From Desulforudis sp. (GTDB taxonomy: Bacteria > Bacillota > Desulfotomaculia > Desulfotomaculales > Desulforudaceae), in NCBI GenBank assembly GCA_019084485.1, contig JAHRFU010000009.1, forward strand, positions 1 through 56,566: a DNA stretch of 56,566 bases, written 5' to 3'. Positions 18,176 to 31,734 of this stretch are shown here, in pieces. The position numbers were made by a program, and so were the translations under genes. The notes under the pieces are model-generated. The model was not told the origin of the DNA. It made no database searches and worked only from the letters and a program-made list of their open reading frames with translations. The stretch's first letter is position 1. Each line of letters opens with the position of its first letter.

Positions 18176-19546
18176 TCACATGGTGAGTTCGCCTTCGGGA
18201 GTGTCGATCAGCTGCAGGATTTGTTCCTGACGTCCGTTGTTCGCATTGACATAAATGAGGTAAACATTTCCTGCCGCTTCACCCCTGAACTCCCAAGTGA
18301 GCAGCTCCCCGCCGCCCTCGGTCGGGATGACTGCCAGACGTGAGTTCGTTACCTGAACGCGCTCGTTAATCTTCTTCCTGGCCTGATCCGCGGATACGGC
18401 AGGCTCCAGGTTGTCCCGCCGGTGGTGGTGCATGACATACCCGTACCCCTCACGACCGATTACCTGTCCATTATCGAGGGCAACCGTGACCTTTAGTAAG
18501 TCCGGGTACATGATTACCCCGTCCTGTGCACCAGCGAAGTTGTAGGTAACGGTGTCGCCCTGCCTTACGGAATAGGTGACCCTCATCTTCTTTATGTTTC
18601 GCTCCTCAAGGTAGCGTTCCGCTCTTTCTTTGGCCTCGGCAACGCTCAGCTGCTCCGGCCCAGGCGGTCGGGAGTTCAGAAACCAGACAACCTCCCCGCC
18701 ACGGCGGGCCACATCAACGGTAAAGCGGTCGTCCCTGCCACCGCCCCGGCCGATTACCTCCACGCGCACCGCCGGAATCAGACCACGGGTCGTCCCAGTC
18801 ACTCTTGTCTGATAGTCAACCCCTTCACGGCGGTCCACGGCTTGCAGCGCAATTTCACGTGCCCGCTCCTGGTCGACCGCCTCGCCACCGAGCGCTCGGG
18901 GCTCCTGCCTCTGCAAATGATCCGAGAACGGCCCGTCATAGATCAGGGTCGGAAAGGCCTCCATCTCCCGGTTGATCGAACGGAACTCGTCTTGGGCCGG
19001 GTTTAGCGGGCTGGCCGCCATTGCCCCACGACTGGCGCGGATCAGCTGGTTGATTTCCCAGAAATGCGCCCCATTCTGCTCCATCTGACGCTCGATATCG
19101 TGAAGCTCATTGTTTAGGCTCCCGGCTTGGTTCTGCAGGCGGCGTAAGGTATTCCAATGCTCGTCCGAAACCGGTACCCCCATCGCGGACTGCCGCAGGA
19201 GAGAGCTACTGAAATCACCGACCTGGTTTAGGAACTTAGTAGTTCGGGCAACGGCGATCCCTTCCACCGGCAGACGGGTCAGGTTACTTTGAGCGGCCAA
19301 AGCCTGCTGATAAATTTCCGCGAACAACCGTGTGTCCTCTGAGTCTCCACACACGGCCAGACTCTTTCCAAGAAGCACTTCCAGCCCACGCACCTGCGAC
19401 AGAGTATCGTAGAAAGAACGCTGGTATTCATTGTTCAGAAAGTTCTCCATCTGAACCCGCGTCCGCGACTGGTCCAGCCCCCAGGCAAAGGATACCACGA
19501 ACAGTAGGGCTAAGACGGCCACGGGTATGGTCCACAAACGGGGCAT
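18176..19546 (-). CDS. ypeB: germination protein YpeB
   Basis: YpeB is required for the spore cortex-lytic enzyme SleB to be stably placed in the dormant spore. The 456-residue protein has one N-terminal membrane segment (IPVAVLALLFVVSFAWG), a long helical region, and C-terminal PepSY-type repeats (from about 220). The sleB-ypeB pairing is conserved in spore formers, and here sleB is directly upstream in the same direction. Transcription in the forespore (sigma-G) is expected from the family but I did not find a clear promoter. The ATG has AAGGGTG upstream. Confidence 0.92.
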   Translation of the reverse strand: MPRLWTIPVAVLALLFVVSFAWGLDQSRTRVQMENFLNNEYQRSFYDTLSQVRGLEVLLGKSLAVCGDSEDTRLFAEIYQQALAAQSNLTRLPVEGIAVARTTKFLNQVGDFSSSLLRQSAMGVPVSDEHWNTLRRLQNQAGSLNNELHDIERQMEQNGAHFWEINQLIRASRGAMAASPLNPAQDEFRSINREMEAFPTLIYDGPFSDHLQRQEPRALGGEAVDQERAREIALQAVDRREGVDYQTRVTGTTRGLIPAVRVEVIGRGGGRDDRFTVDVARRGGEVVWFLNSRPPGPEQLSVAEAKERAERYLEERNIKKMRVTYSVRQGDTVTYNFAGAQDGVIMYPDLLKVTVALDNGQVIGREGYGYVMHHHRRDNLEPAVSADQARKKINERVQVTNSRLAVIPTEGGGELLTWEFRGEAAGNVYLIYVNANNGRQEQILQLIDTPEGELTM

Positions 19547-19612
19547 TCACTATTCACCCTTTCCTTGTATGAAACGCTCCAACTTTAGGCGAAGGTAACG
19601 ACCTACGCTGCC

Positions 19613-20305
19613 TTAACGGGCAAACACGTGCTGCCCGATCCGGGTCTGGATCCGCCGGGTCCAAATCCAGGGGTTGACGGGCTTTCCGGGGTTCCAAAAG
19701 AAAAGCGCGCCACCAGACGGATCCCAGCCAGCCAAGCATTGTCTCGCGGCGCGATAGGCATCCTGGGAAACGGGCCGCCAAATTGTACCCCGGCTGACCG
19801 ATTCAAAGGCCAAGGGTTGATAGATCACACCGGACACCGTATTGGGGAATTGGGCGTCACGTACCCGGTTCAGTATCACGCCACCCACTGCCACCTTCCC
19901 CACATACGGTTCCGCACCGGCCTCGGCCATGATCACCCGGGCCAACAGGTGGACCACATCGTCACGCGCCACCACCCGGCCGGCCTGAGTCGGCACGGCC
20001 GAATCATAGGCATTACCGAACCCCAGCGCGCGCCACGTGTCTCCGTCCACGATGCCGCTAACCCGAATGCGGTGTTTGGCCTGGAATTCACGTACCGAGC
20101 GCCAGGTCGCTCCATCCAGCGTCCCATGGATGTCCCCCCGATAGAAACCCTGTGCAGCGAGACCTTCCTGAATCTGTTCCACGTGGAATCCTTTGCTGCC
20201 CCAAGTCAGGACGGGCATCGGCCCCATCCGGTTCTCCAGGTACAGCGCACCGGTAACCATGAAGATTAGTCCAAATGCAAGAATGGCTATACTACGCCGG
20301 TACAA
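19613..20305 (-). CDS. sleB: spore cortex-lytic enzyme SleB
   Basis: SleB is a lytic transglycosylase that degrades cortex peptidoglycan at muramic-delta-lactam during germination. It has an N-terminal membrane or signal segment, a peptidoglycan-binding repeat (WGSKGFHVEQIQ... about 34-95) and a C-terminal hydrolase_2 domain. The catalytic glutamate is expected in IMAEAGAEPYVGKVAV. The TTG at 20305, preceded by GAGGGGGCGG, gives 230 residues; the open frame begins at 20374 with an unlikely extension. It is followed by ypeB, its required partner. Confidence 0.93.
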   Translation of the reverse strand: MYRRSIAILAFGLIFMVTGALYLENRMGPMPVLTWGSKGFHVEQIQEGLAAQGFYRGDIHGTLDGATWRSVREFQAKHRIRVSGIVDGDTWRALGFGNAYDSAVPTQAGRVVARDDVVHLLARVIMAEAGAEPYVGKVAVGGVILNRVRDAQFPNTVSGVIYQPLAFESVSRGTIWRPVSQDAYRAARQCLAGWDPSGGALFFWNPGKPVNPWIWTRRIQTRIGQHVFAR

Positions 20306-20470
20306 TTTACCGCCCCCTCTGTACTTTTCCTTATTCTTTGTTGAAGGGCATAAAAAAATGAGCACCAAGTGCACATTTGAGAGGTGGGAAGTGAAAAAGG
20401 GACAGTCTCCTTTTCTTATGTATTTTATTTGGGGGTGCTTCGCTACCGTTCACTGTCCACAGAAACATCA

Positions 20471-25962: not shown

Positions 25963-25980
25963 GACGCAATCAATTGCGTC
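25963..25980 (+). promoter_or_regulatory. palindromic operator-like site before the fmdB-like operon
   Basis: GACGCAATCAATTGCGTC is a perfect 8+2+8 inverted repeat that ends 23 bases before the GTG start of the zinc-ribbon gene. There is no T tract, so a dimeric regulator site is more likely than a terminator. The regulator is unknown. I saw no clear -35/-10 pair here. Confidence 0.45.
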
Positions 25981-26003: not shown

Positions 26004-26246
26004 GTGCCTATTTTTGAGTTCCGCTGTGCCGCTTGTGGGAAGCTTTTTGAGAAGCTCTTCGGACAAGCCGATGAGAAGGTAGAGATCAAATGCCCCGAAT
26101 GCGGTTCGGAAGAGGCCGACCGGGTGATCAGCAGGGCCAATTCCATTATGGGTAGAGGGAAAGGAAAGGACACGAAGTTGACCACCAAGTCCTGCGGCCC
26201 TGGAAGTTCGTGTCATACTTTGGAAATACCCGGAGCGGGGGATTAA
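26004..26246 (+). CDS. FmdB-family zinc-ribbon protein
   Basis: This 80-residue protein begins PIFEFRCAACGKLFEKLF and has a second CPECG, the CxxC...CxxC ribbon of the FmdB regulator family. The C-terminal tail is rich in G, S, K and two further cysteines (KSCGPGSSC). Members often sit beside metal or sulfur enzymes, with no defined mechanism. Here it heads a two-gene plus-strand operon inserted between the dsrMK and dsrAB blocks. The GTG start has AGAGGTG upstream and a perfect palindrome lies at 25963. Confidence 0.82.
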   Translation: MPIFEFRCAACGKLFEKLFGQADEKVEIKCPECGSEEADRVISRANSIMGRGKGKDTKLTTKSCGPGSSCHTLEIPGAGD

Positions 26247-26249
26247 ACG

Positions 26250-27365
26250 GTGGGGCGGCGACCATCAATTGAACAAACTTCGGAAGGGGCAGCTTGTGTC
26301 TTCTGTGGTTTGTCCATAGAAAGACCAAGAGAAGTGGATGACGGAATCGCCCGGGAGATGGCTGTGGGGTGTTGCACAAATTGCGGTGCCGTCTATGTTT
26401 GTGACGTCACCGGTCACAACCTGGGAGAGGCTTTCTCGGAGGCGCTGGTCTTTGCCTGTGATATGGACTGGGAACTCGCGTGGGATTTCCTGCCCGAGGA
26501 GGACTACCTCCACATGATCGTCGAAGGATATGACCTTGAGACCAACCGGATCTATCCAGAGAGGATTATGGCGGGCCGTGCGGTTAAAGGGGCTCTTTCT
26601 TTTGTCAGGCTACACCAGGACGTTCAGGAACTAAAGGGAACAGGTGTGACCAAAAGGCTGGCAGCAAGCAGAGCCCGCTCCCCGAAGAAGGATGTTGCTC
26701 TGGAACCGGAAACCACGGGAGAAACGAAAAAGCTGACCAAACAAGAGGTTGAACAATGCATCAAGGAGTACCGGCTGGAACCGGTTGTGGCCTCCGCCCG
26801 GCTCGACAAGAAGACCGGCCGGTACCTCCAGCGGCTGCTCCACTCGAACGATGAACTGATCCGGCTTCGCGCCTCCGAGGCCCTGGGGCGGGTGACCAAG
26901 GTATTGGCGCCGGCTGACCCTACCGCGGCCGTGGCGATTCTAAGGGGCTTGTTTACCCCCTTTGAAACATCCAGCGCCTCTTACTGGGGAAGCATCGACG
27001 CCATCGGAGAAATCATGGCCGCAGCACCCGGTCTTTTTGGGGGCTACCTCCCTCGGCTATTCCCGCTCCTTGAAGACGATGCCCTGAGGCCCGTCGTGGT
27101 AAGGGCCTTAACCCGGATCGCACAGGAGAGACCCGACCTTGCCGGGAAGGCCGGCAGGCGGGTCAAGCCGTTACTGAACAGCCCTGATCCTGAGACCCGA
27201 GGCAACGCAGTCCGTCTCTTCGGCTATCTCGGAGCGGACGGTATGCGCGAGCGTCTGTTGGAACTGCAAAATGACAGTAATGAGGTGAAGGTCTACCAGA
27301 CCGGGAAGCTGGTGAAGAAAACCATCGGCGAACTGGCCGGAATAGCGCTGAGCGCTGAGCGCTGA
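26250..27365 (+). CDS. HEAT-repeat protein conserved with dsr genes
   Basis: The 371-residue protein starts with a cysteine-rich module (C16, C19, C41, C42, C45, C51) likely to bind zinc or iron-sulfur. A linker rich in K and E follows, then HEAT-like helical repeats from about residue 165 (for example LLHSNDELIRLRASEALGRV and LLNSPDPETRGNAVRLFG). I recall similar proteins annotated as the DVU0298 family in sulfate reducers, but could not check. It starts 3 bp after the fmdB-like stop. The coding end consists of three GCGCTGA heptamers overlapping the stop codon. A scaffold or maturation role for Dsr proteins is speculative. Confidence 0.7.
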   Translation: MGRRPSIEQTSEGAACVFCGLSIERPREVDDGIAREMAVGCCTNCGAVYVCDVTGHNLGEAFSEALVFACDMDWELAWDFLPEEDYLHMIVEGYDLETNRIYPERIMAGRAVKGALSFVRLHQDVQELKGTGVTKRLAASRARSPKKDVALEPETTGETKKLTKQEVEQCIKEYRLEPVVASARLDKKTGRYLQRLLHSNDELIRLRASEALGRVTKVLAPADPTAAVAILRGLFTPFETSSASYWGSIDAIGEIMAAAPGLFGGYLPRLFPLLEDDALRPVVVRALTRIAQERPDLAGKAGRRVKPLLNSPDPETRGNAVRLFGYLGADGMRERLLELQNDSNEVKVYQTGKLVKKTIGELAGIALSAER

Positions 27366-27384
27366 CCTACAGCCTAGCATAATG

Positions 27385-28029
27385 CTATTTTGTTTCCGGC
27401 CCGAACTCGCCGCGCACCGCGTTTTCAAGCGACGCCTTCAGGGCAGCAGACACGGAAACAAGCAGGGCCGCACGATCCAAGTCGTGCTGGCCACCCTTCT
27501 CCAGAACAGACCGAGACATCTCGTAGAGTTCCCTGTGCAGGCGATCCACGTTGAACGCCGGATAGGACTTGCCGGCTTTAAACGCTGCCTTCCAGCAGGT
27601 GCGTCCAACTCCCTGAACGGTGGTGGGAATGCCGTAGGCACGGCAGGTAACCGGTCGATTAGAGTAAAGGACACAGTCGCCTTGATCGTTGAGCAACGGG
27701 CACCGGATTCGCTCCCTGGCCATGGCGTAGGCCTGCATCTGCGGGTCGTCTGCATGAGCCTCGTTGATCATTGTCTGGAATTTTGTCAGATGCTCTTCAG
27801 CTTGGTTCGCCCGCTTAAGGACTTCCTGCTGTAGTGCTGGATCAAGTTTAGCGAAGCGCTCTCTGAGATAGGCCGCTTCAATCGGGAAAAGGCCAACCAG
27901 CGCGTGACAGCAATCCGTACAGCCCCGCTTGCACTGGACCGCATCGGTGTACTCGCGCTGCACCCTCTCAAAAGCCAGGTCGGCCGCCAGCCCTAGTTGT
28001 TCGTAGCGGGCGAACCACTCATCAAGCAT
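27385..28029 (-). CDS. YkgJ-type cysteine-cluster protein
   Basis: This 214-residue protein carries CX3CX2CC (C33, C37, C40, C41), then CPLL...C and RPVTCRAYG, the pattern of the YkgJ/UPF0153 family, which probably holds a zinc or iron-sulfur cluster. The function is unknown. It overlaps the TPR gene by 8 bp at its start and faces the HEAT-protein gene tail to tail. Its place at the end of the dsrAB-dsrD-TPR run suggests a link to Dsr biogenesis; that is inference. Confidence 0.78.
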   Translation of the reverse strand: MLDEWFARYEQLGLAADLAFERVQREYTDAVQCKRGCTDCCHALVGLFPIEAAYLRERFAKLDPALQQEVLKRANQAEEHLTKFQTMINEAHADDPQMQAYAMARERIRCPLLNDQGDCVLYSNRPVTCRAYGIPTTVQGVGRTCWKAAFKAGKSYPAFNVDRLHRELYEMSRSVLEKGGQHDLDRAALLVSVSAALKASLENAVRGEFGPETK

Positions 28030-28666
28030 CGCCGTCCCCGCCTGGCTCTCGGTATGGTTCCAGTTCCTTGAGGAAGTCGGGATGGACCGGGAAGCCGTAC
28101 GCTACGGCCAGGTCCACGTGCTGGACAGCCCGTGCGTATTCACCATTAAGGTAGCAGGCATAGGCCAGGTTGTTCTGACCCAGGCCGAATTCAGGGGCCA
28201 TCGCCACCAGTTTCTCGCCGGTCCGGACCGCTAGCTCGATGTCATCCTTCTGAAGATAGGCGCTGACCAGGTTGGCCCACGCCTGGACGATTTCGGGATT
28301 GAGTTCAACCGCCTTTTCCAAAGCGACGATGGCTTCGTCGGTCTGCACCTGTTGCAGGTACGCAAAACCGAGGTTGGCGTACCCCCGGGCATAGCGAGGC
28401 TCAACCTGGACCGACCTGAGGTTGGCTTGGACAACTCCCTCGAGATCACCCTTCTTGAAAAAGATGTAACCTAGGTTGACCCAGGCCTCAAACATGCGCG
28501 CACCGTCTTCAATAGCGTCCTTAAAGTACCTTTCCGCCTCATCCAGCCGTCCCTGCTCCATCGCCGCCACACCCAGGTTATAAAGAGCTGTGGCGCATTC
28601 AGGGTTGTCTTTGAGCAATTGCTTCTGCTCGTGGATCCAACTATCCGCATTTCGGGGTTCAGACAC
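28022..28666 (-). CDS. TPR-repeat protein of the dsr locus
   Basis: The product is built of about five tetratricopeptide repeats (for example ATALYNLGVAAMEQGRLDEAE and EAWVNLGYIFFKKGDLEG). There is no signal peptide, so it should act in the cytoplasm as a protein-binding scaffold. I take the GTG at 28666, which has GGAAGGAG upstream. The longer frame to 28714 would start inside the dsrD terminator. It is translationally linked to the YkgJ gene and lies downstream of dsrABD, so it is expressed with them by readthrough or from its own promoter. Confidence 0.82.
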   Translation of the reverse strand: MSEPRNADSWIHEQKQLLKDNPECATALYNLGVAAMEQGRLDEAERYFKDAIEDGARMFEAWVNLGYIFFKKGDLEGVVQANLRSVQVEPRYARGYANLGFAYLQQVQTDEAIVALEKAVELNPEIVQAWANLVSAYLQKDDIELAVRTGEKLVAMAPEFGLGQNNLAYACYLNGEYARAVQHVDLAVAYGFPVHPDFLKELEPYREPGGDGDA

Positions 28667-28694
28667 CGACCGCTTCACTCCTTCCGTGTAAGGG

Positions 28695-28726
28695 AAAAGG
28701 CCGCCCGCCAGCAACGGGCGAGCGGC
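28695..28726 (-). terminator. Rho-independent terminator after dsrD
   Basis: On the minus strand GGCCGCTCGCC and GGCGGGCGGCC (28699-28726) form a GC-rich hairpin followed by TTTTCCC. It lies 24 bp past the dsrD stop, so it probably caps the dsrABD message and limits expression of the TPR and YkgJ genes. Confidence 0.8.
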
Positions 28727-28749
28727 CTCTCCAATTCCTGCGGTAAGCT

Positions 28750-29001
28750 TTAAGCGTCGTCCTGGGTTGTAGTTTCCCCTTGACGGCTCGTCAGCGTGTA
28801 CATGGTGGTGCTACCGGTCATGAAGTAGGCAACTACATTATCGGCGACCAGCGCGTTGCACGCCTTCTTAACCTCGCGCATACCCACATCGGGGTACTGC
28901 TTCTTCGTGGCGTTAACCAGATCGTTGAAATAGTGCTTGGACTTCTTAGCCTTGGTTAGGTAATCCACGATCGCTTGTTTCATCTCGTCCATTGAAGCCA
29001 C
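28750..29001 (-). CDS. dsrD: DsrD, activator of sulfite reductase
   Basis: This 83-residue winged-helix protein (EMKQAIVDYLTKAKKSKHYF at the start) belongs to DsrD, a marker of sulfate-reducing rather than sulfur-oxidising dsr clusters. Published biochemistry shows DsrD binding DsrAB and stimulating sulfite reduction allosterically. The GTG start has GGGAGG 9 bases upstream. It follows dsrB by 39 bp and is followed by a strong terminator. The acidic C-terminal tail is short. Confidence 0.96.
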   Translation of the reverse strand: MASMDEMKQAIVDYLTKAKKSKHYFNDLVNATKKQYPDVGMREVKKACNALVADNVVAYFMTGSTTMYTLTSRQGETTTQDDA

Positions 29002-29040: not shown

Positions 29041-30228
29041 CTATTCGATGCCGCCCGCCGCCTTCGAAACCGCCCACGCAGCGTCTGTGTACTTGAACTG
29101 GGTGCTCGTCCGGTACGAATCGTACTGCAGACGATAGTCGTCGATAAGGTGTTCGGTAAAGGGCAGTTCGCACTTCTCAAAGAACTTCTCCCAGCCGATT
29201 CTCTCCGCCCAGTCACCGAGCCGCTCATACTTGTTAGCATTCGCCGCGTAGACCTCGACAATACGCTTAACAACCTCGCAGGTCTCGGGGAACCGCGGGA
29301 AGTTGTTGGGCAGGAAGGGAACGATTACCTTCGAGAACTTCGGCGGCGAAATGCGGTTGGAGAGCTTGCCGCCCGCCAGCACGACGATACCGTCACCCTC
29401 TTTGTCGGAGAGCGGCAGGGCCGCGCACATGGTGTAGCAGTTGCCGCAGAACATGCAGCGCTCTACCTTCAGCTTAACCGTCTTCTTGCCTTCTGGGGTC
29501 GTGGCCGGCGAGAAGGCGGCCACTGGGCAGGAAGCGATAACCGTGGGAATCTCGCACATCTTGGCGAGAAACTCGTGGTCGATGATCGGCGGCTTGCGGT
29601 GGTAGCCCAGCAGCGCGACATCCGAGCAGTGCACGGCACCGCACATGTTCAGGCAGCAGGCCATGGAAACGCGAAGCTTGGCCGGCAGGGTCATGCTTTG
29701 GAAGTATTCGAATAGATCATCCATCAAGGCCTTAACCATCGAAGACGCGTCGGTGGCCGGCGTATGGCAGTGGATGTAGCCCTGAGTGTGCACGATGTTG
29801 GTGATGCCGGCACCGGTTCCCCCAATCGGGAACTTGAGGCTGCCGGAGAAGAACTTGCTGCTCTCCAACTCCTTCTTCAGGGGCTCGAGTTTCTCGTAGC
29901 TGTCAACGAGAAACTCGATGTTGTTACGCGTGGTGAAGCGGACATAGCCGTCACAATGCCTGTCGGCAACGTCGCAGATGTCGCGCATGAAGGCTGAACT
30001 CAAAATGCGCATTCCGCCGGCACGTACGGTATAGACCTTCTCACCGGTCTCCGAAACGTGCACGAGCACGCCGGGCTCCAGGACTTCGTGATAGAGCCAC
30101 TTGCCGTAGTTCCGCTGGATGATCGGCGGGAAGAAATCCCAGAAGTGCCGCGGCCCAATATCGGTAATACGGTCCTTGGTGGGGTTTTCGGGGTCGAACG
30201 CCCCAAACCTAGTCGAAGAAAGACCCAT
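29041..30228 (-). CDS. dsrB: dissimilatory sulfite reductase beta subunit
   Basis: DsrB carries the catalytic siroheme-[4Fe-4S] centre in the alpha2beta2 enzyme. The cysteine-rich region [12 protein letters not shown] (about 190-201) and the inserted ferredoxin domain [11 protein letters not shown] (258-268) are intact. The ATG at 30228 with GGGAGGGTG upstream gives 395 residues, and the product begins [13 protein letters not shown]. It follows dsrA by 78 bp. All expected features of a reductive, bacterial-type DsrB with an adjacent dsrD are present. Confidence 0.97.
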
Positions 30229-30306
30229 GTTAACACCCTCCCGTGAGAGAAATTGAGTTTCACTGGTACCGGTTAAGCCGCCGTCAAGCGACATCCGTAA
30301 GCCTTA

Positions 30307-31734
30307 CTATCTTGCGTGGCGCTTCCTGTAGTCGTCGATGTCGCGCTCGAAACCACCCGGTACGTCCTCGGCCTTCCAGAAGATGTACGGGTTTTCACGT
30401 GGCCGCCAGACGTGCTGCGGCATCACCGGGAGTCCGCAGGCTTCCAGGAACTTCGGCAGGCCGATACGCTGAATCATCTCACCGATACGCTCGCGGTTCT
30501 TGCCCTCTTCAATCCAGTACTCCTGAATTCTGTCGATGGCGTCCTTGATGTTGTCATACGGGGCTTCGGCCTTCATAAAGGGAACGACCAGGGTCGACAT
30601 CTGAGCGCCTTCCAGAATGGGAGCCTTGGCGCCGCAGAGGATGCTGAGACCGGTATCGGCACCCGGCCGGACAGCCCGTGGCATGGTGTTGATACAGTGC
30701 ATACAACGGACGCAGTTGGCATCGTCAACGGTCAGCACACCGTCTTCATAGGTCATGCAATCGCTCGGACAACGGTCCACGACTTCCTTGAAGATGTCAA
30801 ACTTGCCCCAGTCGCGGCCACTGTGCGAGCCGCCGCCGGGAGCGAAATCACCAGCGACATACCCCTTCACTGCATCCTGGTCAATGCGGATGTTGTCCCG
30901 CCAGGCACCGATGAAGGACAGGTCGGAACGGGCGATCGACGCCACACAGCCGTTGGGGCAGCCGTCGAACTTGAACTTGAACTTGTACGGGAACATCGGG
31001 CGGTGCAGCTCATCCTGGTAGTGCATCGTAAGTTCGTAGCACAGCGCCTGCGTGTCATAAAGGGCATACTGGCAACGCGCCTTACCGATACAACATTCCG
31101 GGGTACGTAGGTTTGAACCCGATCCACCGATGTCATTGCTGAGGTGGTGGGCGGATTCCTGGAAGATCGGCTCCAACTGCTCGGTGAAGGTGCCCAGAAG
31201 GATAATGTCACCGGTGGAACCGTGCATGTTGAAAATACCGCTGCCGCGCAGTTCCCACATATCGGCGAGACCGCGGAGAAAGGCGCTCTTATAGAACTTG
31301 CTGGACGGCTGGTTCAGACGCACGGTATGGAAGTGCGCAACGCCGGGGAACTTGGCGGGCAGGTCGGAATAACGACCGATAACACCGCCGCCGTAACCGT
31401 TGACGCCCACGATACCACCGTGCTTCCAGTGGGTCTCGCCGTCCTCAAACGAAACCTCGAGTTGGCCCAGCAGGTCTTCCACGACATCCCTGTTGATCAG
31501 TAGCCGGTCATCGGCCATCTTCCTTCTGCGGAGTGCCTCGACCTTAAGGTCGGCTACGAAGCTGGGCCACGGCCCGGATTCCAAATCTTCCAGCATGGGA
31601 ATGTCGTACTTAATCTTAAAACTTTTTAGCTCTTCGTCGGACGGATTCTGTAGTTCCTCGTCGGTATAGATCCGCAATTCCTGATAATCGAGATCCTTTT
31701 GCGGGACTTTCGGCTCAAAAGACATAGCTATCAT
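30307..31734 (-). CDS. dsrA: dissimilatory sulfite reductase alpha subunit
   Basis: DsrA pairs with DsrB to reduce sulfite by up to six electrons. The siroheme-cluster ligands appear as CX5C (C216-C222 in the numbering from GTG 31737) and CX3C (C260-C264 in DGCPNGC). A ferredoxin domain carries CPSDC and CVRCMHC (about 323-348). I choose the ATG at 31734 after AAGGAGG; a third candidate ATG gives MSFEPKVP. It is the first gene of the dsrABD operon, and a 585-bp non-coding region lies upstream. Confidence 0.97.
   Translation of the reverse strand: MIAMSFEPKVPQKDLDYQELRIYTDEELQNPSDEELKSFKIKYDIPMLEDLESGPWPSFVADLKVEALRRRKMADDRLLINRDVVEDLLGQLEVSFEDGETHWKHGGIVGVNGYGGGVIGRYSDLPAKFPGVAHFHTVRLNQPSSKFYKSAFLRGLADMWELRGSGIFNMHGSTGDIILLGTFTEQLEPIFQESAHHLSNDIGGSGSNLRTPECCIGKARCQYALYDTQALCYELTMHYQDELHRPMFPYKFKFKFDGCPNGCVASIARSDLSFIGAWRDNIRIDQDAVKGYVAGDFAPGGGSHSGRDWGKFDIFKEVVDRCPSDCMTYEDGVLTVDDANCVRCMHCINTMPRAVRPGADTGLSILCGAKAPILEGAQMSTLVVPFMKAEAPYDNIKDAIDRIQEYWIEEGKNRERIGEMIQRIGLPKFLEACGLPVMPQHVWRPRENPYIFWKAEDVPGGFERDIDDYRKRHAR

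Follow-up and report, generated by a model that had tools for sequence, protein, structure and literature searches.

A four-gene accessory module conserved beside dsrABD in one lineage of reductive DsrAB

Introduction

DsrAB performs the terminal step of biological sulfate reduction, and in the literature searched we found no report of dedicated factors that load its siroheme and Fe-S centres. In a 56,566-nucleotide stretch of DNA from Desulforudis sp. (contig JAHRFU010000009.1, positions 1 to 56,566; hereafter the window), four genes lie inside the dsr region, raising the question of whether they belong to the Dsr system and, if so, what they might do for it. A sequence-only reading had proposed that they form an undescribed Dsr accessory module, suited either to assembly of siroheme/FeS-loaded DsrAB or to loading of DsrC. 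The individual protein families are already known; as a set, the dsr module appears to be undescribed. None of the four genes is named in large dsr synteny and genome surveys (PMC10504309; PMC10591310), the families are not mentioned in the main text of the D. vulgaris and D. alaskensis fitness papers, and the set is absent from the dsr surveys and sulfate-reducer papers that could be searched (most subscription papers lay outside the search, so a prior mention is possible). The only label that we found for the set is the NCBI DVU0298 model, a name without a function; a literature lead from that number was dropped, as it labels a CO dehydrogenase in one paper's table, apparently by a slip. DsrD, DsrN, DsrT, DsrL and DsrEFH likewise have their genes inside or beside the dsr operon and share the distribution of one DsrAB type, but have no sequence relation to the four proteins described here.

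Results and discussion

Organization of the locus

Open reading frame positions and domain searches bore out the presence, between ferredoxin/dsrMK and dsrABD, of four genes with the domains that had been claimed for them (Table 1). They are flanked by fdx-dsrM-dsrK-dsrC-cbiA on one side and dsrABD on the other, both on the minus strand. The FmdB and HEAT genes converge on the YkgJ and TPR genes, with the 3' ends of the pairs 19 nt apart; since the pairs lie on opposite strands, they represent two transcription units and not one operon. TPR-YkgJ directly follow dsrA-dsrB-dsrD on the same strand and form the end of the dsrABD operon, and their overlap, 8 nt in the window, is typical (median gap: -2.5 nt; 80 loci). 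The sleB-ypeB spore-cortex genes adjoin the dsrC/cbiA end, a neighbourhood that recurs in many Bacillota sulfate reducers.

Table 1. Features of the dsr region, in window coordinates.
Feature	Position	Strand	Basis or remark
sleB-ypeB	18176-20374	-	spore-cortex genes
Palindrome near FmdB	25963-25980		8+2+8, 18 nt
FmdB, dsr-type zinc ribbon, 80 aa	26004-26246	+	TIGR02605
Long DVU0298-family Cys-domain/HEAT protein, 371 aa	26250-27365	+	NF045662, HEAT repeats
YkgJ / CxxCxxCC protein, 214 aa	27385-28029	-	PF03692
TPR protein, ~214 aa from GTG 28666; longest ORF from TTG 28714	28022-28666	-	TPR_1 3e-25
Terminator-like hairpin, dsrD/TPR junction	28694-28732	-	conserved stem, covariation
dsrD	28750-29001	-	PF08679 81 bits
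dsrB	29041-30294	-	C-terminal tail coded at 29044-29085
dsrA, 472 aa	30307-31725	-	N-terminal extension ~38 residues coded at 31612-31725

A palindromic site near the FmdB gene had also been noted. The palindrome, GACGCAATCAATTGCGTC, is present in the window but is not conserved in relatives: a relative of the same genus and most other loci have nothing comparable upstream of FmdB. It therefore carries little weight, and we rejected it as a conserved operator. These observations bear on the idea that the genes form a regulatory or sensing module which, like DsrD, would adjust dsr expression or the activity of DsrAB in response to metals, redox state or sulfite. FmdB takes its name from a regulatory protein, and zinc ribbons would suit signalling, as would a kinase-like fold encoded at some related loci (see below). 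Moreover, TPR-YkgJ share an operon with dsrD, whose product is reported to be an allosteric activator of DsrAB (PMC10591310). However, none of the four proteins showed a DNA-binding or receiver domain in our domain search and, with the operator-like palindrome not conserved, we consider a regulatory role distinctly unlikely.

FmdB, HEAT and TPR proteins

The FmdB protein scored 57.8 bits against TIGR02605 (cut-off: 31.3), matched Zn_ribbon_8 and is a member of the FmdB family. Its two CxxC knuckles (C8-C11 and C30-C33) are invariant among homologues, and so are C64 and C70 in a conserved C-terminal tail, KSCxxGxxC...EIPG. In the 60 genomes of the order, dsr-type FmdB proteins scored 103-149 bits, compared to 58.6 bits or less for every other FmdB; TPR orthologues scored 348-399 bits in 34 of these genomes. 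Viral contigs yielded no homologue.

The HEAT protein belongs to the DVU0298 family (NF045662: 158.5 bits; cut-off: 75; residues 166-367), which is strongly tied to dsrA-bearing genomes. The match covers the C-terminal 200 residues; in addition to the family domain, the dsr-linked protein carries an N-terminal, zinc-ribbon-like Cys4 domain (approximately residues 1-130), a region in which no Pfam family was matched. In the homologue alignment C16, C19, C42 and C45 are invariant and C70 is nearly so. The conserved cysteines of this protein, which had been described as Cys6-HEAT, are four plus C70 and not six. The C-terminal half of the AlphaFold model (mean pLDDT: 81.6) consists of helical repeats; Foldseek returned only generic HEAT proteins, and a search for an informative PDB relative ended likewise in generic repeat proteins. 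The HEAT-like repeat fold is shared with the CpcE/CpcF bilin lyases, whose client carries a tetrapyrrole, although the similarity is weak and generic (Foldseek rank 27, E 8e-3) and has no sequence evidence behind it.

Other arrangements of these domains were also seen. The window's genome encodes a short 218-aa DVU0298-family copy (contig C66, 15364-15969; L086) and a fragment (contig C76, 3941-4207; L087) in its assembly, G000. The neighbours of short copies were considered as a clue to function and set aside as heterogeneous (alanine dehydrogenase, amino-acid permease, histidine kinase, chemoreceptor, PhoU). In eight Desulfobacterota genomes (G318, G252, G347, G374, G288, G214, G350 and G228) the Cys4 domain is a separate gene of ~118-179 aa, and in most of these the HEAT part is coded elsewhere. 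A candidate long form in genome G062 was rejected, since its HEAT part is joined to a methyltransferase-like domain.

The families are co-distributed with one type of DsrAB

We profiled 60 genomes of the order, 35 of which carry the window's DsrA type. The TPR protein and dsr-type FmdB were found in the same 34 of these 35 genomes, as compared to none of the other 25, and the lone exception is a genome that is 57% complete. YkgJ was present in 27 of the 34 TPR-bearing genomes and nowhere else among the 60. Many of the 25 genomes without the module, sulfate reducers included, carry a shorter DsrAB. Among 149 genomes of the phylum, exactly four encode a TPR orthologue, namely those with the long HEAT protein and this DsrA, and all 14 genomes with a DVU0298-family protein above cut-off belong to the 26 whose dsrA passes its own cut-off (Fisher 6e-13). 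Of 178 Desulfobacterota genomes, 88 carry dsrA; the same is true of 38 of the 39 with TPR (Fisher 3e-13) and of 33 of the 35 with the long HEAT protein (Fisher 5e-10). Far from being equally common in genomes without dsrAB, the families are depleted there.

The module does not accompany every reductive DsrAB, being absent with the shorter DsrAB types in both Bacillota and Desulfobacterota. Desulfotomaculum ruminis (G039) has another DsrAB type and no module, and it is a sulfate reducer (PMC3569383), indicating that the module is lineage-specific and not needed for DsrAB in general.

Gene order follows dsrABD

The order FmdB-HEAT> <YkgJ-TPR-dsrD-dsrB-dsrA recurs in Bacillota and Desulfobacterota, and within the window's order, loci with the same DsrA type (at least 69% identity) keep the full arrangement almost without exception. 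When we scanned GTDB genomes with the HEAT alignment, the best 80 of 132 relatives, which came from Bacillota including Moorella and from many Desulfobacterota, nearly all showed this arrangement beside dsrABD, subject to contig ends. Over 94 distinct loci, FmdB preceded HEAT in 78 of the 81 cases that could be tested; TPR was nearby in 77 of 78, YkgJ in 55 of 78, and dsrB in 77, with YkgJ missing in ~30% of module loci. The orientation was convergent in 70 and co-directional in 7; in the latter, FmdB-HEAT is flipped into the dsrABD-TPR strand and the linkage is kept. In the Desulfofundulus group YkgJ is lost and FmdB-HEAT lie in the dsr strand (dsrABD-TPR-FmdB-HEAT-dsrMK-dsrC-cbiA), and two genomes elsewhere in the phylum keep FmdB-HEAT> <TPR-dsrDBA. 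In divergent Desulfobacterota, TPR lies directly by dsrA, or a TPR-HEAT pair lies near or away from dsr: in an evenly drawn sample, 36 of 39 TPR orthologues were at most 8 kb from dsrA or at most 4 kb from a HEAT or N-domain gene, and TPR near dsrA is expected by chance ~0.2 times in the same sample. The gene set is far beyond chance, and its order and orientation are conserved in dozens of loci from two phyla. In a Syntrophaceae MAG (G208; L169/L219 and L220) we observed two dsrA copies on separate contigs and, unlike most other loci, CbiA upstream of HEAT.

Thirty loci extend for 8.5 kb or more in both directions; dsrB was within reach of the module in all 30 of them, dsrC in 19 and the cognate dsrK in 14. 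Since dsrB is always in reach and dsrC and dsrK often are not, the module follows dsrABD and not dsrC/dsrMK. This disfavours loading of DsrC, which had been put forward as one possible job: where dsrC and dsrMK lie apart, the module is still found beside dsrABD. The same linkage argues against an electron- or sulfur-transfer accessory, in which cysteine-rich proteins would supply electrons or handle sulfide or polysulfide near DsrAB. Many cysteines, the KSCxxGxxC tail of FmdB and a ferredoxin gene often near the module are consistent with such a function, but the conserved Cys4 pairs look like zinc ribbons, and neither TPR nor HEAT carries a redox motif. We regard it as very unlikely.

Together, order and distribution lend good support to a conserved accessory module, made up of the four genes, that belongs to one lineage of reductive DsrAB with DsrD. 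Both refutation checks that the sequence-only reading had set, on families equally common without dsrAB and on an order not conserved in other sulfate reducers, left its module idea standing, narrowed to a single DsrAB lineage.

DsrA phylogeny and terminal tails

In a DsrA tree of 107 rows, some of which were picked for their TPR or HEAT matches, the full module marks one well-supported group with members from both Bacillota and Desulfobacterota. The TPR gene by itself reaches other reductive Desulfobacterota lineages, and a group of short DsrA forms has none. In the full-module group, DsrA has a conserved extension of ~38 residues at its N-terminus, which every DsrA of solved structure lacks (residue 39 is the first to align with PDB 2v4j), and within the sample the C-terminal tail of DsrB is conserved only in module-bearing lineages. 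No locus in the sample had dsr-type FmdB without the DsrA extension; seven, mostly on short contigs, had the extension without an FmdB call. We treat the coincidence of tails and module as a lead and not as proof: both fall on a single clade, so it counts as one evolutionary event and not as repeated evidence.

A clade spanning two phyla could also arise by passive hitch-hiking, with unrelated genes moved along in lateral transfer of the dsr cluster. Lateral transfer of dsrAB between Bacillota and Desulfobacterota has been reported in the literature, and the confinement of the full module and its DsrA type to one clade is consistent with it. However, the linkage survives rearrangement, TPR and HEAT are paired even away from dsr, the divergent TPR orthologues of other lineages are also linked to dsrAB, and residues are strongly conserved. 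Hitch-hiking is, in our judgement, extremely improbable.

A conserved hairpin between dsrD and TPR

At the dsrD-TPR junction of most loci, in both phyla, we found a hairpin with a sequence-conserved stem, GAGGYYGC/GCRRCCTC, usually followed in homologues by a T-run that is weak in the window. At least 8 of the 9 pairs are kept in 70 of 78 distinct loci. The two inner pairs alternate between C-G and U-A (30/23 and 31/24; the rest are almost all U-G), a switch indicative of compensatory change. None of 222 loci has the pattern more than once, and nearly every occurrence is at this junction; no Rfam family matched the hairpin. Its likeliest role would be partial termination, an attenuation that holds TPR-YkgJ below DsrABD. 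The hairpin offers an RNA element for studying dsr operon stoichiometry.

A possible role in DsrAB biogenesis

The four proteins are probably helpers that build, modify or guard DsrAB, and the siroheme/FeS loading of DsrAB proposed earlier would be a plausible job for them. HEAT and TPR proteins are established protein-binding scaffolds. The combination of dsrABD linkage, two repeat scaffolds, metal-binding motifs, likely sub-stoichiometric expression and lineage-specific client tails best matches a set of proteins dedicated to biogenesis or quality control of the DsrAB heterotetramer; we put the chances of this at somewhat short of even, physical interaction and an assembly role being what we infer. 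The TPR and HEAT proteins would bind DsrA and DsrB as clients, perhaps via the lineage-specific tails, and would hold them during insertion of the siroheme-[4Fe-4S] and ferredoxin-type clusters. FmdB and the HEAT N-domain could act as small metal-stabilised zinc-ribbon adaptors, and the eight-cysteine YkgJ as an optional Fe-S-bearing helper or modifier. The hairpin after dsrD may keep TPR-YkgJ scarcer than the abundant enzyme, as would be expected of helpers.

In a broader form, which we advance only tentatively, a large lineage of reductive DsrAB (in many Desulfotomaculum-like Bacillota, Moorella and many Desulfobacterota) would have its own maturation or modification machine, comprising dsr-FmdB, N-Cys4-HEAT, TPR, YkgJ and sometimes a kinase-like protein, which recognises the DsrA and DsrB tails and is kept sub-stoichiometric via the hairpin.

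With members that occur almost only with DsrAB, the module provides concrete candidates for DsrAB-dedicated factors and explains unannotated neighbour genes in many sulfate-reducer genomes. Heterologous production of this DsrAB type may depend on it, and its genes are genomic markers that aid in distinguishing this DsrAB lineage.

YkgJ and a kinase-like fifth gene

YkgJ is a member of PF03692 (29.7 bits; gathering: 23), and C33, C37, C40, C41, C110, C119, C129 and C145 are invariant in 27 homologues; no solved structure homologous to it was found. A [4Fe-4S] cluster in the flagellin lysine methylase FliB, bound by CX4CX3CC, has been likened to PF03692 motifs, and FliB has eight conserved cysteines (PMC8598068). 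YkgJ resembles FliB in having an N-terminal cysteine cluster and eight conserved cysteines in all, but its motif (C33-C37-C40-C41) is CX3CX2CC and not of the FliB type, and its gene neighbourhood differs.

By analogy, the genes could encode a modification complex in which YkgJ, as a FliB-like Fe-S enzyme, would modify DsrA or DsrB, perhaps at the tails. TPR and HEAT would present the client to it, and in many Desulfobacterota a kinase-like protein would take part. The PF03692 membership with its eight invariant cysteines, the comparable cysteine pattern of FliB (PMC8598068) and the conserved client tails are in keeping with this, as is a fifth gene of ~380 aa that lies between HEAT and YkgJ in ~20 loci, mostly of Desulfobacterota. 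Its product matched no Pfam family, and its AlphaFold model (pLDDT: 86) resembles protein kinases, with low TM-scores and a divergent catalytic region. On the other hand, YkgJ is the most dispensable member (55 of 78 loci), its cysteine spacing differs from that of FliB, no catalytic site was identified, and the window's genome lacks the kinase-like gene, as do 59 of the 60 genomes of the order. Modification as the main task of the module hence seems unlikely to us. Examples of the fifth gene are found at 1024-2169 in L127, at 11234-12388 in L135 and in ~18 other loci (alignment A7).
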